Assembly (NCBI RefSeq): GCF_964355755.1
Contig: NC_092678.1
Span: forward strand, 18,510,922 to 18,574,921
Length of the DNA stretch: 64,000 nucleotides
Source of the DNA: Antedon mediterranea
Lineage: Eukaryota; Echinodermata; Crinoidea; Comatulida; Antedonidae
Direction of reading: 5' to 3'
A program made the position numbers and the translations under genes. This document shows positions 27,066 through 54,135 of this stretch, piece after piece (position 1 is the stretch's first letter; every line of letters begins with the position of its first letter). The notes below the pieces were generated by a model, which was not told where the DNA came from, did not search any database, and saw nothing but the letters and a program-made list of their open reading frames with translations.

Positions 27066-27412
27066 TTTCGAACTGTAGGTCTAGGAGGCTAGGTTTAGTA
27101 CGGACAGTAATTTGAGCCGTGCTCTTCCCAAAATGTAGGCCTAAAAATATCTAGCTATCTATGTACGATCACATCAAGCAATTACTATTTGATTATCACT
27201 ACACTTTGCAGGCTAATGTTCTCATAAAATTCCAATTGTTGCTTCTAATTCTCTCCAACTAGGTGCGCCGCCGCCAGAACCAACACATTGATGTGTTTAT
27301 TGAATCTGTGGTCACAACGCTAATTCCGATTTTTCTTCTAGACGTGAATTATTCTTTTTGGAAATTATAACTTTTAATTGTTATTAATATACTGGTCATT
27401 GACAATCTTAAA

Positions 27413-27445
27413 ATGATTCCTCTAGGCATGCTGCATCGAATATGA
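27413..27445 (+). promoter_or_regulatory. Upstream open reading frame overlapping the PPxY1 start
   Basis: ATG at 27413 opens an 11-codon frame (MIPLGMLHRI then TGA) whose stop overlaps the main ATG in ATGA at 27442-27445. If transcribed, it would force reinitiation or leaky scanning and limit translation of the main frame. A splice acceptor-like 'ttttcttctag' at about 27329-27340 suggests a 5' non-coding exon beginning there, which would include this uORF. Confidence 0.45.
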
Positions 27446-28094
27446 TCATTATTGTCATAAGTGCAATTCTTTTAGTTTATTTTGTCTGTGGATTGTGTAA
27501 AATTGTTGAAATTATTACAACCCGGAAAAAAGATCGAGCCAATACAGCTACAGGTAGGAATCCATATTACATTTTGTAAACTAGTATAAGTAGGTATACT
27601 TTCTTAAGATAGACTTTTAGGGTGCCAATGAAAACATCATTAACTAAAGTACCGTAGTCAGCATGGTTTACCCTAGTCCCAGACTGTAGGGGAAAATCAG
27701 ATAATGTCCCTGCCCAATCTCAGTTAGGCCTAGAAATGCAAACTAGAATGTAATTCGTTGTTTTAATAAAGAATGATAACCAGCCATAACTATTGAATTC
27801 TAGATACTGCATGAAAATATTTCCCTAAAGTATAGGCAAGTTTAACGTGGAGAACTCGCAAACATAACTTTCGATGTTTGACCTTTTTTCTCAGAATATC
27901 AAGTCCGAAGTATTTCTTCGAATATTAATTCAAGGTTCGATGACACTTTTTCGACTTTACAAAATGATTTCCCTCCATCTTACGATGAATGCATTGTTGC
28001 AGTGTCTACGAAGATAACGTTAGATGCACGTGTTAAGGATACACCTGTGTTACCTCCGTCATATGATGATGTTATGCAACATCTGCATATTTAA
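27442..28094 (+). CDS. Small membrane protein with two PPxY motifs (PPxY gene 1)
   Basis: Two coding exons, 27442-27553 and 27895-28094, joined across a 341-bp GT-AG phase-1 intron (ACAG|gtagga ... ttctcag|AATAT), give 103 residues. Residues 2-24 (IIIVISAILLVYFVCGLCKIV) form one hydrophobic segment starting at the N-terminus. It is followed by the positive cluster TRKKDR, so the tail is predicted cytoplasmic. The tail carries FPPSYDE (PPSY at 64-67) and LPPSYDD (PPSY at 91-94). PPxY motifs bind WW domains, typically of Nedd4-family ubiquitin ligases; paired PPxY on a small membrane protein is the layout of Ndfip, WBP1/VOPP1 and PRRG adaptors, though no sequence homology beyond the motifs is evident. 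It has the same architecture as the genes at 29873 and 40271. AATAAA lies 25 bases after the stop. Confidence 0.8.
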
Positions 28095-28119
28095 CGTCAG
28101 TTTACAATGACGTCATATA

Positions 28120-28125
28120 AATAAA
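28120..28125 (+). terminator. Polyadenylation signal of PPxY gene 1
   Basis: Canonical AATAAA 25 bases past the TAA stop, in 'tcatataaataaaactttta'. The short spacing gives a very compact 3' UTR; later signals are possible. Confidence 0.55.
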
Positions 28126-29819
28126 ACTTTTATTATGCCATAACTTCGAAAAAATCGTTATCTATTACATGTATTCGAAAGAATGCACTTTGCAAAAAGT
28201 AAAAACATGTATTTTTTATAAGATTAACGATTTCCATGAAATCTCTCTTTTCTCGTTGATTACGCAAAGAGGAGCCTATTATACTGATATTGTACAGCAT
28301 TTATTCATGCCATGTGATCTGCTACTAAATAATTTACAATGTTTGCTGTTTGGTTATTACCATAAACGCACATCATTACTGTAAATGAATCAGCAAAATT
28401 AACTAATAAAGATGTTTCATGGCTTTACACTATTATAGTTTATAAATATGAACTGACATCGTAGTCATAGCAAGTTACAACTACGTATTTAAGTGACTGT
28501 AACCATTTAGGCCTAGTGTAAAACATGTATGTTAAAAATACATTAAGCAGAAGACATAAGAACTATATTATCACACAGAAGAAGCGTAAAGCTCTATTAA
28601 ATTAAAATTTAATTATAAAATGAGAATTTTACAGATTACAAAATTTTGTATTTTTTTAAAAACCATATTTAATGAGGGTAATCCATCCAGCAATTGCTCA
28701 TCATTAGGGACCCTCAGAGGTTCACAAGACAAACATATACATAAGATGCTCTACATAAACAAAGTCTTATTACAAGTCTTTGTGTCAAGCTGCCATTATA
28801 TTGTTGAATACCATTTGTCAGTGAGGCTGACGAAATTATTTTGAACTTGTAAATAAAGAATCATTGTGAAATATTATCATTGTAAATTAAACTAAAATTT
28901 TGTTTGTGAATTCCCTATTATTTCTTTGTATGGCTGTTCTTATCTTATAACGGTACTCTTCATTTCTATTGCTGTGCATACGGAAAATCGTGTAGGACGG
29001 GTTAAAACAACAATAGGTGTATTATTATAATGACAATAATTGGGTAAAAGGTGGTTAGAAACGTATATATTATTGACAAGTGATAAATTGATTTTTTTGT
29101 TGACAAACGAAGATAAAAATTGAGCTTTGGACCGTTGTCTTTTCTATGCACACGTTAATTCTACGCTCTCATATAACAAACGGACACAACGAAGAGATAC
29201 TGTATACATTATTATTGCCGTTTATTGTACCAAATAAAAGCATAAATATAATTCTTATATTTTAACTACACAGGTGAGTAACGAAATCAAATAATTATGT
29301 TATATTGATCTATATAAATACTATTATATAAACTTATATATGCCTAGGCCTACTTAATTACCATACTACAGATAGTAATAATAGTTAAAAAGGTCAATAA
29401 TGTTAATATATACTTTCCTCTTCAGTATGAAATCAAAATAGTTCTCTATGCAGTATCACTTTGGTGCACATACCTGTTATTTAATTTTATTTTTTAACAC
29501 CCGTAGTTTTATTAACTACTGTAGGGACTATTAGATTAGTTTATCCGATATATTTACCGTTCAAATAGGCTTACCTGACTTCATAATGATATAATTGTAC
29601 ATTAGGCATATACGTACATAGCCTTTCAGGAATTTTACGAATGGAAAAAATTAATCTTGTTTAAGGTTACAACCTTTTTTTTATAACATTATAATTCTTT
29701 TTTAATTGGTTAGTTAAAATGTTGATGCACATGTTGTTGTTATCTGTCCAAAATAGTTTTGTTTTATATAGTATGTTTGTATGATACTATTATATTATAT
29801 TTTATATTTAGAACGTTGG
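28126..29819. other. Spacer between PPxY genes 1 and 2
   Basis: AT-rich; the open frames at 28169-28384 and 28620-28844 have no splice or composition support. It should contain the promoter of PPxY gene 2, but no TATA box or clear motif can be singled out. Confidence 0.4.
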
Positions 29820-29855
29820 ATGGCCTACACGTAAAATAAAACAACAATCATGTGA
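29820..29855 (+). promoter_or_regulatory. Two minimal uORFs before PPxY gene 2
   Basis: ATG at 29820 opens MAYT-stop (ending at 29834), and ATG at 29850 is followed directly by TGA, a start-stop element. Both precede the main ATG at 29873 and would act in the 5' leader if it includes them. Gene 1 also has a uORF. Confidence 0.4.
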
Positions 29856-29872
29856 AAGAAAGTTCTATTGGT

Positions 29873-31043
29873 ATGAACTCTGACCTTGTTGACCTACTCA
29901 TTCTAATTGTCTTCTGGGTAATATTTTTGTACGTTTTGAGAGCACTAGACAAGTGTTTATCACACATTGAAGAACGAAATAGACAAAGGCACGAACGCCT
30001 AAATACAGGTAAAAATACATTTTACATTTAATGTGAATTATAGTAACTTCAGTGTATTTTTGTTTATTATAACAATGTATGGGTTCATGACTTTTATAGT
30101 GGGACACTTTAATCTGTGATTGGAATGTGTGTACAACATCCGCAAAAAATAAACACAGCATTTACTAAAACCACGAAGCAACTGGTTGCAACATATTATT
30201 ATACATTCTTTCAAACTATTGGGGCCCAACAGGTAGGCTACCCGTTAGGTCTTCTAAATAGACATTAATGAAACAGATATCTCTTAGTATCCCATTCTTA
30301 ATTTATTCCCACGGGCATATTCTTAAACTTATCCAAAAAGACTGTTCTTTATATCTTGGGGGAATATTTCCTAGTGTTAACGTATTCACACAATCGTCCT
30401 ATTTATTTTATTTTTGTATTAAGCCTTATTTTAAAAGGATAACCCTAAATATTATATGCTGACAACCAAGAAAGAACAGTATTTGTTGTTGTTAAATATG
30501 CAATTTTAATGTCGCAAAATCGTTATTCGTTTTGATAAAAAATTAGATCGAAAAACAAATGATTTAGGCCTACCTAAAGAACTTTAATTCAAAGCAAGAC
30601 GTGTTAAATTGCCTGGAAACAATGGGTTTTGTTGAACTTAACCGTCTATTTTGTCTTTCTTTTCTTCTAAGAAATTATTAAACTGCGAAATAGCCTATTT
30701 AAAGTCTTTTTTAAAAAATGTATTAATCTTCATTTTTCACAAATTCATCTTTGACAAATTCATCTTTGACAATACATTTGATAATAAACATTATTTATTT
30801 TCTTTGAGCTTAGTTCGTGAAGTACATGTAAACTGTGTGTTTCTCCAAGAAATTGAAGAGAACAACAGTATACCGCCATCTTACGACGATGCACAAATTA
30901 TGTCGGATTCGGTATCTCTTTACTCGTACTCCACTGTTAGCCAGATGCCAATCCACAACGATGCTCCACCGGAATACGACAGGGTCATCCAAGACTGTTT
31001 TAGCAGTGGGGATTTGTCTTGGAATATTGTGACCCAGGTCTGA
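29873..31043 (+). CDS. Small membrane protein with two PPxY motifs (PPxY gene 2)
   Basis: Coding exons 29873-30008 and 30850-31043 flank an 841-bp phase-1 intron (ACAG|gtaaaa ... tttctccaag|AAATT), giving 109 residues. After MNSDLVD, residues 8-23 (LLILIVFWVIFLYVLR) form the membrane segment. A charged stretch (HIEERNRQRHER) follows, then IPPSYDD (PPSY at 54-57) and APPEYDR (PPEY at 85-88). Between the PPxY motifs is a Ser/Tyr-rich run (SDSVSLYSYSTVSQ). The intron position, its phase and the Glu created across the junction equal those of gene 1, and the order TM, basic or charged stretch, PPxY, PPxY is the same. Likely role: WW-domain adaptor for ubiquitin-ligase recruitment at membranes (inference from motifs). 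The intron holds a reversed family C fragment. The acceptor pyrimidine tract is short, so the exact exon 2 start is the least certain point. Confidence 0.75.
30479..30562 (-). repeat. MITE-like family C fragment, reversed, in PPxY2 intron
   Basis: 'ttgttgttaaatatgcaatt', 'gttttgataaaaaattagat' and 'cgaaaaacaaatgattta' correspond in inverse order to the right half of family C (compare 9060-9180). Confidence 0.4.
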
Positions 31044-31179
31044 AATGTATGCCTGGCTAGCTAACTCAGATCGTGTACTGACTGTAGGACATCATTATTA
31101 ATTTGAAAACTATTTTCAAAGAGAATAGCACAAATGTACAATCGAAGTTTGCCTAAATAGACTGGTGTTTTTTCTCAGG

Positions 31180-31185
31180 AATAAA
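31180..31185 (+). terminator. Candidate polyadenylation signal of PPxY gene 2
   Basis: AATAAA in 'ctcaggaataaataatatg', about 137 bases after the stop at 31043. Confidence 0.45.
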
Positions 31186-31799
31186 TAATATGTATATAGT
31201 AATTTAGAAACTTGTTATTAGTACAAAAGAACTATGTAAAATGTGTACTAACTCTACCGTATTTAAAAATATTCCATAATTAATCGTAAATCATATGGCA
31301 ACCAAAAATGACATTTCGTAGGAATATTCTCATAAAGAAATAAAACACAAAAGGTAGGCCTACAGTTGTGGTTTTATAACCTCTATTGAAAACATAGCGT
31401 TCCATAGTGGTGGACTTTCTTGTATTCTTTCTCGTTCGTTTCACACGAATGTGTCTTCTTAATATAGGGATGTTCTTTATTGTAACTTGTAGATGTATGT
31501 GCTTATTATAAGCAGTTCTTATTTTTATCTTAATTTATGTTTTCTAAATACATATTTAGGTCCTTTAATTACACAATTAAGTATACTAATACTCTAAGGA
31601 TATTTGGAAGTTGATAAAATAATGATTTATTATCAATTGTTATTATCAATACATTAGTACGTAATGTATTATAATATATTGTTGTTTGTGCCTGAAAATT
31701 GAATAAAAAAAAAAATATTAAACAAAATAAAATTTAAACCAACGTTTTTTCCGTATACTTTTTTCCCGGACCGTCTTTTCCGAAATTCGCCTTTGTGTA
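31186..31799. other. Spacer before the CCCAGTGGGCA element
   Basis: No exon seen. AT-rich, ending in the TA that precedes the element's left end. Confidence 0.4.
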
Positions 31800-31814
31800 C
31801 CCAGTGGGCAAAAA

Positions 31815-32850
31815 TTGGTTGAATTAACGTTAATTCAACGTTATCTGCAAACGTTGAAATAACGTTGAAAAAGTGGTTGAAAATGAAAGTTTGCCTCAAC
31901 GTAAATGTCAACGTTGAATCAACATAGAAATTATCAACGTTGAAACAACGTTAAAATAAGTAACGTTGAAATAACGTTGAAAAATGGTTGAAAATGAAAG
32001 TTTGTCTCAACGTAAATGTCAACGTTGAATCAACATAGAAATTATCAACGTTGAAACAACGTTAAAATAAGTAACGTTGAATTAACGTTGAAAAAATGGT
32101 TGAAAATGAAAGTTTGCCTCAACTTAAATGTCAACGTTGAATCAACATAGAAATTATCAACGTTGAAACAACGTTAAAATAGCTAACGTTGAAATAACGT
32201 TGAAAAAATGGTTGAAAATGAAAGTTTGCCTCAACGTAAATGTCAACGTTGAATCAACATAGAAATTATCAACGTTGAAACAACGTTAAAATAGGTAACG
32301 TTAAAATAACGTTGAAAAAATGGTTGAAAATGAAAGTTTCCCTCAACGTAAATGTCAACGTTGAATCAACATAGAAATTATCAACGTTGAAACAACGTTA
32401 AAATAAGTAACGTTGAAATAACGTTGAAAAAATGGTTGAAAATGAAAGTTTGCCTCAACAAAAATGTCAACGTTGATTCAACATAGATTATCAACGTTGA
32501 TTCAATGTTGAAATTATTAACATTGAAACAACGTAATAATCAAGTTGAAATGAAAATTTGCATCAACGTAAATTTCAACATAGATTTAACGTTGAAATTA
32601 TCAACGTTGATTCAATGTTGAAATATTAAAGTTAATTCAACATTATCCGCAAACGTTGAAATAACGCTGAAAAACTGTTGAATTAAAGTTTAAATTAAAA
32701 AAAATATCAACGTTGATCCATTGTAGAGTAATCAACCAAATTCAAGGTAGAAAAAATAACGTTCAATCAACGTATACAGATCAACGTTGATTCAGTGTAA
32801 ACACATTTTTACCGTTGATTCAACATAGAAATTATCAACATTAATTTAAC
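31815..32850. repeat. ~120-bp CAACGTTG satellite array, left
   Basis: About six well-matched units of 'aatgtcaacgttgaatcaac' / 'atagaaattatcaacgttga' / 'aacaacgttaaaataagtaa' / 'cgttgaaataacgttgaaaa' / 'atggttgaaaatgaaagttt' / 'gcctcaacgt', decaying rightwards after about 32460. Each unit holds several copies of the palindromic 8-mer CAACGTTG or AACGTT. Confidence 0.9.
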
Positions 32851-32869
32851 ACAGCAATGGTTTAGTTAT

Positions 32870-33512
32870 TAGAAGAACAGCTTATAGTAACACAACCAAA
32901 ATAAATCAAGCTGAAATCTGGCATATTTTCAATGGTAATTGATTTGTTGAATTACTATATCCAATTTGAATCAACGGTTTTAAAGTAGTTGGTAGTAAAG
33001 TTACTGTTACGTCGCAGAATCCATCAATAGAGACATTTTATAAATACTGTATATCTCACTAATCTTTAATTTCTATAAAAACATAAAATAACATTTAATC
33101 AGGTGTTATCAAATCATCAGGCAAAATCCAAGCAACAATCAAATAATGTACATCCTCACTGACAGTTCTCAGGTACCAATGTTAAGTATAAAAAATATAC
33201 TAATAACCAGTTTGTAATATGTTTGCCAACTAACATGATTGAATAACTATAAATATTGGCTGATTACAGTAAAACACAATAAATACAAGACACGTCACAG
33301 GTGCCTTGTGCTAATGTTGCAGAAGTCCAAATGATGGCAATAACACATTACTGTAATTGCATTGTTCCGATTAGTCAATAAACAGTTGCCTCGATTCCTG
33401 TGTTGACATTGTCCTATGGTTTCCAAAAGTGTGGCAATATTATTCTTCCAAACCTGAAACAAATTCAATCAAGTTACTGTAGTTTTAAACAAAAATAATA
33501 CAGTAAAAAATT
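32870..33512. other. Interior of the 7-kb element, no gene
   Basis: AT-rich sequence without exon-like features, between the left satellite array and a family C copy. Confidence 0.4.
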
Positions 33513-33514
33513 AA

Positions 33515-33842
33515 TTGAAAGATTTATTGTCCCCAAAAAACATGAACAATGAAGATTAATACAATCATACTTTGAATACCTTGCCATTTTGCAATTTTAA
33601 CAATTTAGATATTCACTTGCCGTAGAAAATAAACAAAAACAATAAAGATTTCACTTAACAAAAATACAAAATAAACAGTATATTTAACCAAAAACCAATT
33701 GTTTGTTTAAATTGTCAATTTCAGGTACAAATGCATTTTTTAAAATCTAATTTTTTGGTCAAAGTGAACAACTCTACAGTGACGGCATATTCAACAAAAC
33801 ATTAAAAAAAAAAATTGTTCAGTTCAATTATATCTTTAACAC
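33515..33842 (+). repeat. MITE-like family C, near-complete copy
   Basis: Starts 'gaaagatttattgtcccc' and ends 'caattatatctttaac', imperfect inverse ends of the family. The interior has 'aatgaagattaata', 'ccgtagaaaata', 'tttaaccaaaaacc', 'tttcaggtaca' and 'tttttggtcaaagtga' in the usual order. It is nested in the 7-kb element. Confidence 0.7.
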
Positions 33843-34085
33843 ATTGTTCAAAAATCATACTGTACATAAACAAAAATTCAATTCAGAACATCATTTCACA
33901 CTTACACGTAAAATATGCAATCAATTAAATTTATGTAAATAATATTGCAACACTGTATTAATATTTACGCCGTGGTTATAGGATTCCGGCACCGTAACTC
34001 AACTGCCCAGCGTTAGGGAATCCGACACGCTATTGCGCATGCCCAGAGCGAGGTAATCGGCGACTCTATTTTTGTCTACAACAGA

Positions 34086-34273
34086 CTAAAGCGTGGTTCC
34101 CACTAGCGACACAACACAAGGACGTAACGCAACGCAAGTGAATTGACCAATCACAAGCGATGGCTTATTCGCTTGTGATTGCTAACTGTCTATAACTTCG
34201 CTTGTTATTGGTTAAAACGCTTGCGTTGCGTTTACGTCCTTGCGTTACGTTCTAGTGGAAACCAAGCTTTACA
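34086..34273. repeat. MITE-like family A, short subtype, near complete
   Basis: 'taaagcgtggttcccactag' to 'gttctagtggaaaccaagct', with the internal 'gaattgaccaatcacaagcg' and 'cttgttattggttaaaacgc'. Very similar to 15161-15327. Confidence 0.75.
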
Positions 34274-34550
34274 GCGATGGATCATTTTAATAGCTGCGCC
34301 ACGGCGAACTAGCCGGCCTACATGCCTAATAATACTAGTAGGCCTACCAGCTAGATGTGACCATTGGGCCTATTTATTTCGTAATTAAAAAAGTCGTTGC
34401 TTCATTCATATATAAACTTTATGAATTATAATTAAATGACTAGTTTTAATTTTTATGATTTTTCAAGTACAAAATAAAAGATTTCATATAACGCATTTAT
34501 ACTGTACATAACATCATGCAGCAATCGTATACAAGTTGATTTGTTGACAG

Positions 34551-34762
34551 CAAAAAAAAAACCAGAACTGTTCGGGAGAAGTCTGTGTCGCAACGCTACG
34601 CTATTCATTTTCGTACATTTCTTGAAATACGCAAGCTGATTCTTATCAATATCATAATAATTATTTTAACGCGTGGTGTAATTATTAATTCATGTATGGA
34701 ATGGCCTAGGCCAAGTTTCATCCATCGCTCTCTCCCCAGCGTGACGACTAACTAGGCCACAG
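34551..34762 (+). repeat. Direct duplication, copy 1
   Basis: The block from 'aaaccagaactgttcgggag' through 'cttgaaatacgcaagctgat' to 'gacgactaactaggcc' is repeated nearly identically at 34980-35195, with a few substitutions and small indels. The high identity suggests a recent duplication. Confidence 0.85.
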
Positions 34763-34849
34763 AAAAGATATCTTTGGCTACGCAGTACATCCCTAGTTAA
34801 CACTCCGACTCTCGGGTAATGTGGTGCGTGGTCTGTGGCACTAGTGCAA

Positions 34850-34979
34850 GCTATAATTATTCCGCACGACGGCTGCTGTCAACAAATTTCGCCGTGGCGC
34901 AGCTATTAAAATGATCCATCGCTGTAAAACTTGGTTCCCACTAGAACGTAAAGCTAGGACGTAAACGCAACGCAAGCGG
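34850..34979 (-). repeat. Inverted copy of family A end and flank
   Basis: 'tcgccgtggcgcagctatta' followed by 'aaatgatccatcgctgtaaa' and 'acttggttcccactagaacg' is the inverse of the flank of the family A copy at about 34240-34312. A piece of that locus has therefore been copied in reverse between the two direct duplicates. Confidence 0.75.
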
Positions 34980-35195
34980 AAAAAAAAACCAGAACTGTTC
35001 GGGAGAAGTCCGTGTCGCAACGCTACGCTATTCATTTTCGTACATTTCTTGAAATACGCAAGCTGATTCTTATCAATATCATAATAATTATTTTAACGCG
35101 TGGCGTAATTATTAATTCATGTATGGCCTAGGCCAAGTTTCATCCATCGCTCTCTCCCCCGCGCGACGACTAACTAGGCCTAGGCCACAATTTAT
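34980..35195 (+). repeat. Direct duplication, copy 2
   Basis: Second copy of the 34551-34762 block. Copies 1 and 2 differ mainly at 'gtctgtgtcg' against 'gtccgtgtcg' and around 'tatggaatggcctagg'. Confidence 0.85.
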
Positions 35196-36220
35196 TCAAT
35201 TCAATATTAAAGTTAAGAACTATAAATACCAACCTTTTGTATATAAAAATATTGATCATCCATTAGATTTTTCTCGTTTAATTCACATAGAAAAGATTAT
35301 AGGCCTACATGTACTTCATTATTTTGTACTCAAGCTAGGCATAGGCCTAAAAGGGCCTTACCTTAGCTAGGCCTACAATCTGAAATAAAGAAAGCGAGTA
35401 AGTTTAACAAATAGCCGTCCTAGGCTAGCATGTGTTTGTATACTATAATACTAATAATAGCATTAGCAGCTACTGTAGAAAGCCTAGCAGAAAGCTAGCT
35501 AGGCCTAGGGCCTAGGCTAGGCCAACTAATTATATATTGTTATAGGCCTAGGCCTATTTATGTATACTTTTGGATAAATAAAGAAAGTATTGAACTAAAG
35601 GCCTAATAGTACATACCATTTTATAACCATAATAAGTACAGTACTGTAGTTATCCTTGGCAAGGCAAATGTTTGCCATTGACAGGCATGATACTAAATGC
35701 TTCCACTAGCTAGGCCTAGTGAGTGAATTCAGTTCATCAGTTTGGCAGCCTGCCTAGCCTACCTATTATAGCCTAGCTAGCTCTGCATGTGAGTGTGGCC
35801 TACTAGACTAGAGGCTAGCTATTGATAAGGGTAAAATAGTCAAGCTTATAAATTAGTAGATTACAAATAAAAAAGATTGTTTTCCTACCTGAAAACATAC
35901 TTATTTGACAATTTCAATGATGAGCCTTTTTTTTTCTACACACCACTACTACTGTAGGCCTAGCCTACGTCGAAGTAACTGAAATTACTGACACCAGTTT
36001 CAAAATTTTATCAAAACGAAACTAACCAATGACAAGCTCGTAGGCCTATCTATTCTTATGAAATTTGATCTTGCATGAAAGGATCATTCAATTTTCAACA
36101 CAACTTCTAGAACATTTTTGTATTATACAGAGACAATAATATTTGCCAATCTAAAATTCCTAAATAACCAATAATCATTTGTTTTACAATAAAGGATGAT
36201 AAAATAAACCGCCAACTGAA
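35196..36220. other. TAGGCCTA-rich stretch inside the 7-kb element
   Basis: Dense AGGCCT, CTAG and palindromic 'taggcctaggccta'-type words, especially 35330-35570 and 35700-35830. No exon seen. Confidence 0.45.
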
Positions 36221-36409
36221 ATCTAATGTTAATTTAACGTTGAAACATCAATGGCAACGCACTTAAACACATATTATTTAATATTAAACGTTAAAAACAT
36301 GTCATTTTAACCAAAGTATTAAATAGAATTTATCTTTAATTTAACGTTTAATTAACATTGAAAAACAAAAATAATAATTGTTTGAAAAAACAACATAATT
36401 TCAAGAGTT

Positions 36410-38760
36410 TTTCAACGTTGAAAACATGTCATTTGAAAATGACAATTGGATTTCAACGTTAAAATAACGTTGGAATAACATTGAAAAACAAAAATAATAA
36501 TTGTTTGAAAAAAATTACTAGTTAGAAATACAATGTTATTTCAACGTTGGATCAAAATTGATAAATTAACGTAAATTACTAGTTAGAAAGACAATGTTAT
36601 TTCAACGTTGGAGCACCATTGATAAATTAACGTAAATTTCTTATTAAAAATACAATGTTATTTCAACGTTGGACCAACATTGATAAATTAACGTAAATTA
36701 CTAGTTAGAAATACAATGTTATTTCAACGTTGGATCAACATTGATAAATTAACGTAAATTTCTAGTTAAAAATACAATGTTATTGCAACGTTGGATCAAC
36801 ATTGATAAATTAACGTAAATTTCTTGTTAAAAATACAATGTTATTTCAACGTTGGATCAACATTGATAAATTAACGTAAATTTTTAGATATAAAGACAAT
36901 GTTATTTCAACGTTGTATAAACATTGATAAATTAACGTAAATTACTAGTTAAAAATACAATGTTATTTCAACGTTGGATCAACATTGATAAATTAACGTA
37001 AATTACTAGTTAGAAAGACAATGTTATTTCAACGTTGGATCAACCTTAATAAATTAACGTAAATTTCTAGTTAAAAATACAATGTTATTTCAACGTTGGA
37101 TCAACATTAATAAATTAACGTAAATTTCTAGTTAAAAATACAATGTTATTTCAACGTTGGATCAACATTGATAAATTAACGTAAATTACTAGTTAAAAAT
37201 ACAATGTTATTTCAACGTTGGATCAACATTGATAAATTAACGTAAATTACTAGTTAAAAATACAATGTTATTTCAACGTTGGATCAACATTGATAAATTA
37301 ACGTAAATTTCTAGTTAAAAATACAATGTGATTTTAACGTTGGATCAACATTGATGAATTAACGTAAATTACTAGTTAAAAATACAATGTTATTTCAACG
37401 TTGGATCAACATTGATAAATTAACGTAAATTTCTAGTTAAAAATACAATGTGATTTTAACGTTGGATCAACATTGATAAATTAACGTAAATTACTAGTTA
37501 GAAAGACAATGTTATTTCAACGTTGGATCAACATTAATAAATTAACGTAAATTTCTAGTTAAAAATAAAATGTTATTTCAACGTTGGATCAACATTGATA
37601 AATTAACATAAATTACTAGTTAAAAATACAATGTTATTTCAACGTTGGATCAACATTGATAAATTAACGTAAATTACTAGTTAAAAATACAATGTTATTT
37701 CAACGTTGGATCAACATTAATAAATTAACGTAAATTTCTAGTTAAAAATACAATGTGATTTTAACGTTGGATCAACATTGATAAATTAACGTAAATTACT
37801 AGTTAGAAAGACAATGTTATTTCAACGTTGGATCAACATTGATAAATTAACGTAAATTACTAGTTAGAAAGACAATGTTATTTCAACGTTGGATCAACAT
37901 TGATAATAAAATGAAAATTTCTAGTTAGAAATACAATGTTATTTCAACGTTGGATCAACATTGATAAATTAACCTAAATTTCTAGTTAGAAAGACAATGT
38001 TATTTCAACGTTGGATCAACATTGATAATAAAACGTAAATTTCTAGTTAAAAATACAATGTTATTTCAACGTTGGATCAACATTGATAAATTAACGTAAA
38101 TTTCTAGTTAAAAATACAAGGTTATTTCAACGTTGGATCAACATTGATAAATTAACGTAAATTTCTAGTTAAAAATACAATGTGATTTTAACGTTGGATC
38201 AACATTGATAAATTAACGTAAATTTCTAGTTAGAAAGACAATGTTATTTCAACGTTAACTCAACATTGATAAATTAACGTAAATTACTAGTTAGAAGGAC
38301 AATGTTATTTCAACGTTGGATCAACATTGATAAATTAACGTAAATTTCTAGTTAAAAACACAATGTTATTTCAACGTTGAATCAACATTTATAAATTAAC
38401 GTAAAACATTTGTTAGAAAAACAATGTTATTTCAACGTTGGATCAACATTGATAAATTAACGAAAAACATTTGTTAGAAAGACGATGTTATTTCAACGTT
38501 AAATCAACATTTATAAATTAACGTAAATTACTAGTTAAAAAGACAATGTTATTTCAACGTTTGATTAACATTGATAAATGAACATAAACATTCTATTGAA
38601 AAGAAAATGTTATTTCAACGTTGATTCAATGTTTATTAATAAACGTAAAAAATATAGTTAGGGAAAAAATGTTATTTCAACGTTGATTCAACGTTTGAAA
38701 TACGCTGACAACATGATTTCAACAAATCAACTATATTTCAACGTTGATTCAACGTTGAAA
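36410..38760. repeat. ~61-bp CAACGTT satellite array, right
   Basis: Roughly 35 units of 'acaatgttatttcaacgttg' / 'gatcaacattgataaattaa' / 'cgtaaattactagttaaaaa' / 't'. Recurrent unit variants ('tacta' or 'ttcta', 'gatttt' for 'tatttc') alternate in blocks, which suggests amplification of multi-unit segments. Units become longer and more diverged towards the right end. Confidence 0.92.
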
Positions 38761-38783
38761 TTATGTTCTGTGCCCACTGGGTA

Positions 38784-40270
38784 CGTTTTGATAATAAAAG
38801 AAGGTCTGTATAATTGATCAAAGACAAACTATTGTGTCAAAACAAATAATAAATGAAGGAAATATTATTTCAAATAATCATTAAAAATCACATTTGTATT
38901 GTTACTTTGAGCCGCGCCTCTCCGTCTATGGAGTGCGACCGCCGCCAGAATTGTTGAGGTATACAGTATTACGAAATATAACAATGATTTGAGGAATTTC
39001 TACAAATTGATCGATGTGCATTGTCATTATAGTTTCATAACAACGTTGGTTCGTCGAGCCTGCACATACAAAGTTCAGAAAGCAGACGATTAAACAATCA
39101 AAATCTTCTAGTCATACATATCTCTTTACGTTTTCATTTGCACGTTCGACAAACCCAACGTCACATCATGATTAAACGAATAGGAGGCTCCAAAGTCCAT
39201 TTCTCTAGTGTTAAACCTATCATTAATGCATATGCCTAAGTTGTGTCTTGTTCATTCATCAGTTCACTTCCTGAGTAGGCCTATAAGCGTTAAATAGTAG
39301 TCGTAGGCCTAAACAAGTGCGAATGAATCTCCATCATGGAAAATTGATTAATTCAAATTCTATTCCCTAACGCAACAGTCTTTCCCCCGATATATCTTAC
39401 ACTGAACTGACCTCTTTGAACAAAGATAATATTTTGTCGATAAAATGACGATAAACAAACAAGGTATATCAAGCCACGTTAACAACATAAGTAGTGAGTA
39501 AATATATACAGATGTTATCCATCAAATCCGGTATGCTTACTCCGGATGTTCTCAGTTATGAGGATACATGTTTATCCTCTATAATCATTAATGTTGGCAC
39601 ACAGTAACATTGTTACCACAAGTGGAAAATGGACTGACACAGTTTAACAATCAAGGTATGGTACATCTATAACTAAGTAACTTGTATCTTATTCAACACT
39701 GGGTTATATTAACTACGGTATATACAAGGTTAGTTAACGTCAACCTACTAGTAGGTTGCGGTACCGGTATCAAATGTATTCCGGTCCCACTAAACTCTCT
39801 AAAAACCTCTCCAAAGTCGCTATAGGTTTAAGCATATAGAGGCCGAGGCCTAACCCAAATCCAAATGGAATAGATTTTTCACTATATGATACATTAATTT
39901 TCAACACTCCTTGATATTTCAGCTCAGCCTAGAGATAGTGAGGAATTCTTTCAGAATTCTGACACGATTCGGTACTCTAATGTATTAATTGTTATATAAT
40001 AGTTACGGTACTACTCTACTGATATTCTCATAAACAAATTAAATCAGAAAGCAGAAATGGAATAGTAAATTAGTAGAAGTTCAATGTTTAATTCTGTGTT
40101 TGCTACCCCAAAGAAAAAGTTTTCGAAAAAAAATAAAATATTTTTATATACTAGGCCACCACAAAATTATCTTATAAAACGATAAACACTATTACTTTTA
40201 TTATTAAAGTAACAAGTAAACGATTTATACATATAACAGTTTAATTCTTCAATACAGAAACACAGTTAGT
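38784..40270 (+). other. Upstream region of PPxY gene 3
   Basis: Non-repetitive after the mobile element. 'gtgcgaccgccgccagaa' at about 38932-38949 resembles 'gtgcgccgccgccagaacc' at about 27263-27281 upstream of PPxY gene 1, a possible shared promoter or 5' exon element. No TATA box is obvious. Confidence 0.35.
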
Positions 40271-41057
40271 ATGGCAGACTTTGTCATTTACATATTTCCC
40301 GCCATTGGAATTATGGCACTGGTGATAAGCTGTTGCTGTTCGTATGCTTCTAAAGGGAGTTCAGACATTGGCAGCGAATTAAGTAAGTAGGCCTAAATAC
40401 CATCTTAAACTTGGTTCACACTAGAAAGCAACGCAAGCGAATTGACCAATGACAAGCAACAGTTCGAATAATTCATCGCTTGTGTTTGGTCAAATTACCA
40501 GTAGTAGGCCTACTAGACATTTGGATAGATTGAATCTCTTAAGCTTGGTTTCCACTAGAAATTCATCGAAGGACGTAGAAGCAATGCAAGTGATTTTACC
40601 AATGACATGCCACCGTTCGAATAATCCATCGCTTGTAATTGGTCAAATCACTTATTGGTCAAATCACGTCCTTGCGTTACCTCTCTAGTAACCACAGCAC
40701 ATAGTTAGTCAGTAGTTTTTATCTGTAATTTTTTAGACTATCAGTTTTGTTGCGATTTATTTTTTCTTAATTTTTTTGTATCTTCTTCTTGCAGGTGACA
40801 ATGATTCTGAATTAGAAAACGGATTTACAGATTTTCATTTTCCACCACGAATAGCGTCACCAGACCCATCTACGTTTATAGTCCCACCGTCTTATGAAAT
40901 TGCCATGACGTTACGACAAGACAGTGAACAGTCTAAACTGACGACTCCGTTGTCTCCTCCACCAACCTACGAAATGGTAGTATTTGACCGTCTGATGGTA
41001 GGCCTACCAATGCTCACGCCTGAAGATCTAGGAGTAGTGACGTTTCCAGTAACGTAA
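40271..41057 (+). CDS. Small membrane protein with two PPxY motifs (PPxY gene 3)
   Basis: Coding exons 40271-40382 and 40795-41057 are joined across a 412-bp phase-1 intron (TTAA|gtaagt ... cttcttgcag|GTGAC), giving 124 residues. Exon 1 is 112 nt, exactly as long as exon 1 of gene 1. MADFVIYIFPAIGIMALVIS is the membrane segment. CCC at 21-23 just inside it is a possible palmitoylation site. The tail holds VPPSYEI (PPSY at 68-71) and PPPTYEM (PPTY at 93-96) plus a hydrophobic C-terminus ending FPVT. The TM, intron phase and paired PPxY plan matches the genes at 27442 and 29873. Family A repeats fill much of the intron. Role as for gene 1: WW-domain adaptor, by inference. Confidence 0.8.
40404..40505. 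repeat. MITE-like family A fragment in PPxY3 intron
   Basis: 'taaacttggttcacactaga', 'gcgaattgaccaatgacaag' and 'cttgtgtttggtcaaatta' identify a truncated short-subtype copy. Confidence 0.6.
40541..40697. repeat. MITE-like family A copy in PPxY3 intron
   Basis: Opens 'ttaagcttggtttccactag', contains 'gattttaccaatgacatgcc' and 'cttgtaattggtcaaatcac', and closes with the diverged 'cctctctagtaaccacagc'. It ends about 100 bp before the exon 2 acceptor. Confidence 0.65.
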
Positions 41058-42004: not shown

Positions 42005-42330
42005 TATGAAAAACAAAACAAAACATGAAAAATGAAGATTAATAAAATTAAATTTTTAATAGGCCATTTTGTAGTTTTAATAACATGATTTCCGCACAAA
42101 AAAACGAAAAAAAAAAAATGTTTTCACTTATAAAAGACAAAAAAAAAACATAAATTCAATTTGACTATTTATTTCTTTGGATTACAGTTTTTCAGGTAAA
42201 TGATATATATTTTTTTTGATCAACATTTTTGTCAAAGTCAATAACTATTATAGAACATCAAAATAGTATACTATATTCAACAACAAAAAAAAAAAAAAAA
42301 AAAAGATTCAGAGATACAATATCTTGTATG
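42005..42330 (+). repeat. MITE-like family C copy
   Basis: 'catgaaaaatgaagattaat', 'ttttgtagttttaataacat', 'acttataaaagacaaaaaaa', 'tttttcaggtaaatga' and 'tttgtcaaagtcaata' occur in family order. The right end is degraded ('atacaatatctt'). Confidence 0.6.
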
Positions 42331-53700: not shown

Positions 53701-53760
53701 ATTGTGCTTGTTAAATTTCAGACACATCTCTACTAGAATACTATTATACCGACCACGAAG

Positions 53761-54135
53761 ATGTTTTTCTTAAACTTAGTTACGTTATTGTGCATCAGTA
53801 TATCTTTAATGTTCGTTGTACAGTCGACGGATACAGACAACGCTAGGCAAAAATCGAACGCCGACACTCTAGATTATCACGCGCTTTTTCGAAAATTTAT
53901 TGGTAGTAAGCCATTTCTGATACCAGACGAGCATTTTCAATTTATGAATCGGCCAGATGGCAGACGACTTAAAGACATGACGTTCTCAGGTTTCTTCGAC
54001 ACCACACCAATGCCTCTAGCAGACTCAGAAGAACCTTTTGTAAAACAGGATAACACGAGGGGATTGGGTTCGTTAAACCAGATAGATTACAATCCATCAG
54101 ATTGGAACAGTTTTGTTTTTTCGGTAAGGCAATAA
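53761..54135 (+). CDS. Secreted protein, possible neuropeptide precursor (first exon or complete)
   Basis: ATG in a favourable context (cgaagATG) opens a 124-codon frame. Residues 1-22 (FFLNLVTLLCISISLMFVVQ after Met) are a clear signal peptide with cleavage likely after the Gln-Ser. Beyond it the protein is hydrophilic with no Cys and no membrane segment. It contains basic sites Arg44-Lys45 and Gly67-Arg68-Arg69; Gly-Arg-Arg is the classic prohormone site giving a C-terminally amidated peptide, here about 21 residues (46-66). The following block contains KDMTFSGFFDTTPMP. TCG|GTAAGG at 54121-54129 is a good splice donor, so translation may continue in a later exon instead of stopping at 54133-54135. 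I do not recognise the family. Composition is distinctly coding compared with the flanks, and a TATA box lies upstream. Confidence 0.6.
   Translation: MFFLNLVTLLCISISLMFVVQSTDTDNARQKSNADTLDYHALFRKFIGSKPFLIPDEHFQFMNRPDGRRLKDMTFSGFFDTTPMPLADSEEPFVKQDNTRGLGSLNQIDYNPSDWNSFVFSVRQ

Follow-up and report, generated by a model that had tools for sequence, protein, structure and literature searches.

Membrane proteins with PPxY (PY) motifs that act as adaptors of Nedd4-family ubiquitin ligases (E3s) are a known kind, and such adaptors decide which membrane proteins these ligases destroy. The best-studied of them come from vertebrates, insects or yeast. PMEPA1 (TMEPAI) has a short extracellular part, one transmembrane (TM) segment and two PY motifs, through which it binds NEDD4-2 and delivers a target for degradation (PMC8508116). 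In the STMC6 group (WBP1, WBP1L, VOPP1, CYYR1, TMEM92), which combines a TM segment with several PPxY motifs, CYYR1 binds WWP1 and WWP2, and WBP1L acts with WWP1, WWP2, ITCH and NEDD4L (PMC11399591). ENTREP (FAM189A2) and NDFIP1 are likewise described as PPxY membrane proteins that bind and activate ITCH. Commissureless (Comm) of insects is short, with a single TM segment, L/PPxY motifs in the tail, an extended PY motif with acidic and hydrophobic residues, and little conservation beyond the motifs; it requires the sequence GLPSYDEAL, and the paper states that homologues were not found outside insects (PMC5578492). Here we compare with these systems a locus of the crinoid Antedon mediterranea, contained in a 64,000-nucleotide stretch (the window) of contig C9 (18510922-18574921; genome of 354 Mb in 18 contigs). 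It holds three tandem genes, g1, g2 and g3, predicted to encode short single-pass membrane proteins with two PPxY motifs each. Judging from sequence and from analogy with the systems above, we consider them membrane adaptors that recruit Nedd4-family E3s, with a probability of about 0.6.

The three gene models have the following parts.

27442..27553, + strand: g1 exon 1, with start Met, TM segment (residues 1-19), basic stretch TTRKKDR and phase-1 end at CAG/GTAGGA
27895..28094, + strand: g1 exon 2, presumed cytosolic tail with two PPxY motifs and the stop codon; AATAAA at 28120
27972..27983, + strand: g1 PPxY motif 1 (PPSYDEC)
28053..28064, + strand: g1 PPxY motif 2 (PPSYDDV)
29274 (first intron base), + strand: donor CAG/GTGAGT of a candidate 5' untranslated exon of g2, 13.4 bits
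29873..30008, + strand: g2 exon 1, with start Met, TM segment (residues 4-22) and charged juxtamembrane stretch
30850..31043, + strand: g2 exon 2, tail with two PPxY motifs; AATAAA at 31180
30873..30884, + strand: g2 PPxY motif 1 (PPSYDDA)
30966..30977, + strand: g2 PPxY motif 2 (PPEYDRV)
40271..40382, + strand: g3 exon 1, with start Met, TM segment (residues 4-22) and a Cys cluster at residues 21-23
40795..41057, + strand: g3 exon 2, tail with two PPxY motifs; acceptor 13.6 bits
40884..40895, + strand: g3 PPxY motif 1 (PPSYEIA)
40959..40970, + strand: g3 PPxY motif 2 (PPTYEMV)

The gene coordinates, taken from a preliminary description of this DNA, proved correct. The first exons comprise 37, 45 and 37 codons plus one base in g1, g2 and g3, which gives phase 1 in all three, and all introns are GT-AG. 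That description also placed the introns at the same position; their phase is indeed equal, but the agreement extends to phase only, and the g3 intron is at most possibly homologous in position. Two coding exons per model likewise stand, and g2 may hold a further, 5' untranslated exon, of which the strong donor at 29274 is a likely sign. For the label 'microproteins', the predicted lengths (103, 109 and 124 aa) slightly exceed the 100 aa usually given as the limit (PMC10199267). Each protein has one hydrophobic segment, with a mean hydropathy over the best 19 residues of 2.9 in g1, 2.6 in g2 and 2.5 in g3 (starting at residues 1, 4 and 4) and next-best averages of 0.46-1.09. A purine stands at -3 of all three start codons, the g1 acceptor (TTTTTTCTCAG/A) scores 11.2 bits, and the first AATAAA follows the stop codon by 26, 137 and 385 bases in g1, g2 and g3, respectively. 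Unspliced, the frames would reach a stop after 45, 52 and 39 codons.

Evidence that these are genes comes from the rarity of their parts. In 184 kb (the window plus 60 kb on each side), stop-to-stop open reading frames (ORFs) of at least 15 aa were collected in six frames and compared with 40 first-order Markov simulations. ORFs with at least one PPxY numbered 10, against a simulated mean of 10.85, whereas those with at least two numbered 3, all of them tail exons of g1-g3, where the simulations averaged 0.025 and never gave more than 1; single motifs are therefore at chance level and double motifs are not. A search for an ATG, a TM segment and, between codons 33 and 48, a phase-1 donor gave four sites on both strands, three being the first exons of g1-g3, a scan whose thresholds were set with the three genes already known and which thus shows rarity (one other site) rather than blind discovery. 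Moreover, the six motif copies vary at third codon bases (CCT/CCA/CCG, TAC/TAT, GAT/GAC/GAA) with P, P, Y and D/E kept, and such synonymous changes within kept motifs point to selection on the protein. Codon usage, modelled on 1,620 codons of the same genome, gives a mixed picture: g3 exon 2 is matched or outscored by only 0.6% of 2,477 stop-free controls and the other two tails exceed 82% and 89% of them, but the g2 tail is slightly outscored by another frame. Chance ORFs or decayed genes could account for the codon usage of the first exons of g1 and g3, which fall below about 89% of 6,594 controls, and for the two modest splice sites (g2 acceptor, 4.6 bits; g3 donor, 6.1 bits). With intact reading frames in all three genes, paired motifs and TM exons far above chance and synonymous variation inside the motifs, however, we give that explanation hardly any credence and regard g1-g3 as very probably real genes. 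In g2, a second in-frame acceptor lies at 30814 (4.2 bits), the sole competitor among the alternative acceptors listed for the three introns.

Each tail contains exactly two PPxY motifs (PPSY/PPSY in g1, PPSY/PPEY in g2, PPSY/PPTY in g3), as was first reported, set 25-31 residues apart. The acidic residue said at that time to follow them 'often' follows all six. The third residue after the Tyr (Tyr+3) is Ala, Cys or Val in every copy, so that all read PPxY-[DE]-x-[ACV], and the residue before the Tyr is Ser or Thr in five of the six. All six have a WW-compatible context. In the complex of AMOT PPxY1 with the NEDD4L WW3 domain, the sequence YEEAKV forms a Thr-capped helix in the WW3 groove with the Tyr+3 Ala in a pocket, and replacing this Ala by Lys lowers the affinity for NEDD4L WW3 8-fold (PMC8368996). 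The window motifs resemble an extended PY motif of this type, in which the helix lies against a WW domain of the Nedd4 type.

We propose that each of g1-g3 would encode a small protein that crosses the membrane once, with hardly any luminal part and a tail that is probably disordered, the topology being N-out/C-in to judge from the position of the TM segment and, in g1 and g2, from the basic stretch after it. Each tail would present its two extended PY motifs to WW domains of Nedd4-family C2-WW-HECT ligases, and binding would draw the ligase to the membrane and relieve its autoinhibition. As a result, a membrane partner, the adaptor itself or the ligase would be ubiquitinated and sorted into the endolysosomal system. 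Described membrane PPxY proteins bring such ligases to endosomes or activate them, and we infer the same action for g1-g3, along with expression, topology, disorder, WW binding, ligase activation and cargo; the gene anatomy, the number and context of the motifs and the presence in the genome of WW and HECT exons of such ligases were observed directly. A ligase-adaptor role had been suggested from the outset and is still the best reading, made more specific by the motif context; the accompanying suggestion of budding sites gained no specific support. For budding, the motifs would recruit Nedd4 and then the endosomal sorting complex required for transport, yielding extracellular vesicles, and PPxY-NEDD4L binding does function in virus release (PMC8368996). 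Yet a P[ST]AP motif is absent from all three proteins, Pfam recognises no assembly domain in them, and none of the 35 pattern stretches found in viral contigs with the three-protein profile was confirmed, making vesicle budding very unlikely.

Candidate ligases for the proposed adaptors are present in the genome. At C8:7.117-7.131 Mb, Pfam finds, on a single strand and in this order, exons for C2, four WW domains and HECT, which we take as one gene, and on C11 and C1, WW exons have HECT exons nearby on the same strand. Several points weigh against the adaptor reading. The Phe of the NEDD4L WW3 pocket for Tyr+3 is replaced by Tyr in all four C8 WW domains in our own alignment, and on C11 the frames have FFINH (where a WW match lies) and FFIDH (in an exon unscored as WW); since the C8 domains carry Tyr and the C11 frames Phe, the C11 ligase is the better guess for a partner. 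Lysines after the TM segment are few (a single one in g2, at position 27), so self-ubiquitination would be limited, and the segment after the TM in g3 is net negative, which makes the topology of g3 less certain. In the case of Comm, binding to Nedd4 is reportedly needed at the neuromuscular junction and dispensable at the midline, where its best-known action takes place (PMC5578492), so a PY membrane protein need not act via a ligase.

The genome contains 25 WW matches, many of them distant from the listed HECT exons. PPxY motifs are also bound by WW proteins that are not ligases, a further point against the adaptor reading. The tails might bind proteins of the YAP, WWOX or MAGI/KIBRA type and serve as signalling membrane anchors rather than ubiquitin adaptors, and tandem WW domains do occur in KIBRA, YAP and MAGI (PMC6744271). 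We consider this improbable, however, given that the membrane proteins closest in build whose partners are known from papers act on Nedd4-family ligases.

Another possibility is that g1 and g3 are no more than the TM and tail parts of receptors with ectodomains encoded in overlooked upstream exons. Elsewhere in the genome, in clusters on C2 and C8, TM-PY tails stand behind LDLa exons (loci L024, L025 and L026) or an SRCR exon (L055), and the TM exon of L024 likewise bears an ATG directly before the TM segment. In g2, an in-frame TAA lies at 29837, 12 codons above the ATG, and neither of the two AGs between them has a pyrimidine tract by eye; because of this stop without a usable acceptor, a coding exon preceding g2 is unlikely. 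The first in-frame stop above the g1 ATG is a TAA at 27409, and in both g1 and g3 an AG is present between the upstream stop and the ATG, though as acceptors these score just 3.2 bits (g1) and 5.8 bits (g3). Pfam scans at E (expectation value) 0.1 found no extracellular domain in any of the 17 + strand ORFs of at least 30 aa in the 2.2 kb of non-element DNA above g3, nor in any of the 23 ORFs of the same strand and minimum length with at least 3 Cys above g1 (12.4-27.4 kb). The latter scan was partial: it took 23 of the 41 ORFs with at least 3 Cys, from 160 ORFs overall in 20 kb, the other 18 lying at 7.4-12.4 kb, and exons that are Cys-poor or below 30 aa would escape it. Together the two scans gave three matches, all at chance level; they took the place of a regular-expression screen that recognised one of five known ectodomain exons and was discarded. 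Given the stop above g2 and, for g1 and g3, the ORFs scanned, the trio in the window seems to be without ectodomains, and overlooked receptor exons are unlikely.

Compared with described families, g1-g3 resemble Comm or PMEPA1 in build and fit none of those tested. In Pfam searches at E 10, no family reached its cut-off for any of the three, and the sub-threshold matches were to TM-plus-PPxY families and to unrelated ones. Since g1 controls with shuffled tails still matched WBP-1 (2/6) and TMEM51 (2/6), and in one case DUF728 at E 0.0015, the sub-threshold matches mostly reflect build or chance. A search of the tails against PDB sequences gave nothing better than E 0.6, with one motif-only match to a PVI chain. 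With Comm the three proteins share the single TM segment and the extended PY motif in the tail, but their motifs are all PPxY, with no LPxY. Membership was not supported: none of them matched the Comm family (PF15957; cut-off 27 bits) at E 10, and a genome search with PF15957 gave 11 sub-threshold places, none in the window. The LDLa-type tail of L024 reached 17.4 bits for Comm and the tail of L025 19.3 bits for WBP-1, both under the cut-off. PMEPA1, to which the likeness noted is one of build, differs in its long intracellular domain with a Smad interaction motif. It has an LDLa-bearing relative, LDLRAD4.

Within STMC6, CYYR1 differs from g1-g3 in having a signal peptide and a Cys-rich ectodomain, neither of which was found for the three (the g1 scan being partial); a Cys-rich ectodomain before the TM segment conflicts with the in-frame stop in g2, and none was found in g1 or g3 within the same scans. 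Assignment to STMC6/WBP1 (PF11669) was not supported, at 14.2 bits for g1 against a cut-off of 28.1, with no match for g2 or g3 and matches for two of the six shuffled controls, the best at 14.7. TMEM52 (PF14979) gave the best Pfam score of g1 (19.7 bits, E 0.00084, residues 3-99) and was listed for none of the six tail-shuffled controls, one of which reached E 0.0015 for another family. Here too membership was not supported, g1 lying under the 26.4-bit cut-off and g2 and g3 having no match; none of the TMEM52 matches in the genome falls in the window, and for g1 the family is an open lead. Ndfip proteins require three TM segments, unlike the one hydrophobic segment of each of g1-g3, and this excluded Ndfip1/2. 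PRRG1-4 are membrane PPxY proteins, of which PRRG4 acts like Comm in flies, but they carry a Gla domain (PMC5578492), and no Gla match was obtained in the g1-g3 models or in the upstream ORFs scanned (partially for g1). ENTREP shares membrane location and PPxY. It is a larger protein. Among the top-ranked papers listed for small PPxY membrane proteins and expanded PPxY families, none showed such a cluster, which is weak evidence of novelty.

How closely the three genes are related to each other was assessed with motif residues fixed and the rest shuffled. Tail scores were reached by 5% of shuffles for g1-g2, 64% for g1-g3 and 19% for g2-g3, and first-exon scores by 0 of 500, 24% and 58%, respectively. 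The DNA of g1 and g2 is also alike across the donor (26 bp, 85%, E 0.008, with the next matches in the comparison from E 0.03). On the strength of the shuffle tests and the shared donor DNA, g1 and g2 are probably paralogues. Shuffle comparison showed no homology of g3 to g1 or g2 beyond the motifs, and all that joins g3 to them is its place next to them, its strand, its intron phase and its build. The 'family of three' of the preliminary description thus holds by sequence for g1 and g2, and for g3 by position, phase and build. A mobile-looking element separates g2 from g3.

31799..38782, no strand assigned: high-copy, mobile-looking element (6,984 bp), its ends inverted (ACCCAGTGGGCA / TGCCCACTGGGT) and its interior made of satellites

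The satellites of the interior are of the type AACGTTGA, and GTAC straddles both boundaries; no target-site duplication is claimed. Its left end recurs at no fewer than 33 other genomic places at 98-100% identity, with the same start base within a few letters. Because the spacing is 1.8 kb between g1 and g2 and 2.2 kb between g2 and g3 without the element, the three genes probably lay close together until the element was inserted, recently. A dispersed repeat also has diverged, inverted copies at 30482-30739 and 42026-42290 of the window, one of them within the g2 intron, and by eye a similar stretch seems to lie in the intron of locus L028.

We found that the extended PY tail recurs in the genome and is not unique to the window trio. 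Searches with each of the g1-g3 proteins at E 10 returned their own exons and no close copy. At the DNA level, the pattern PPSY[DE]x[AV] occurs at 41 places and its reversed control at 9. Of the 41, 19 belong to a short C4 repeat (two loci read, the others recognised by 20-mers), and four to one repeated multi-TM protein (three identical, the fourth by 20-mer only). The 19 matches of the C4 repeat lie at 16.27-18.80 Mb, and in both loci that were read the repeat gives NPPSYESV within short ORFs. Among the remaining 18 non-repeat places, two of which (C4:20548368 and C9:3345901) were not read, 12 fall in four clusters of TM genes, the window trio included. The cluster at C2:19.75-19.80 Mb has four places; L024-L026 combine a TM segment, a PY tail and LDLa exons, and the L023 copy, its TM exon interrupted by a stop, appears decayed. 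At C8:24.71-24.73 Mb (L053-L055; 24.710-24.735 Mb), three tandem copies have a TM part and a PPPSYDVV tail, with an upstream SRCR exon shown for L055 alone among the three. An in-frame TGA separates the TM part from the tail in all three C8 copies, which might mean read-through, isoforms or a tail that has been lost. The fourth cluster, at C2:34.76-34.77 Mb, is a tandem pair (L028, L029) in which one exon carries the TM part, by eye with two TM segments, and a PPSYDDV...PPSYNDV tail follows an intron that reads as phase 2; when spliced by eye, the L028 protein matches nothing in Pfam at E 0.1. Beyond the motifs, the g1 tail is more like the L028 tail than any of 300 shuffles, this being the best of 15 comparisons, and the likeness may reflect homology.

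These clusters allow a bolder, doubtful proposal, namely that the PY tail is a module repeatedly combined, in clustered fast-evolving genes, with LDLa receptors, SRCR receptors, a two-TM protein and the ectodomain-free trio. The trio would then be stand-alone adaptors that share the receptors' ligase pool and tune receptor turnover, a Comm-like layer of control that arose outside insects. An ectodomain-free, tandem and strongly diverged set, in a genome with clusters of like-tailed receptors, would show adaptor origins. The short tails would offer material for measuring WW specificity, and short-exon genes of this size are easily overlooked by annotation.

Beyond the trio, Rfam at gathering scores and a tRNA scan found nothing. 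A + strand ORF at 53737-54132 of the window has a signal-peptide-like stretch (MFFLNLVTLLCISISLMFVVQS) close to its start, and another at 1294-1764, of 157 codons, is Ser/Thr-rich; both are without a Pfam match at E 0.01. The sequence TAGGCCTA occurs 82 times in the window plus 60 kb on each side, and AGGCCT 113 times in the same 184 kb, against about 14 expected under an assumed base composition.

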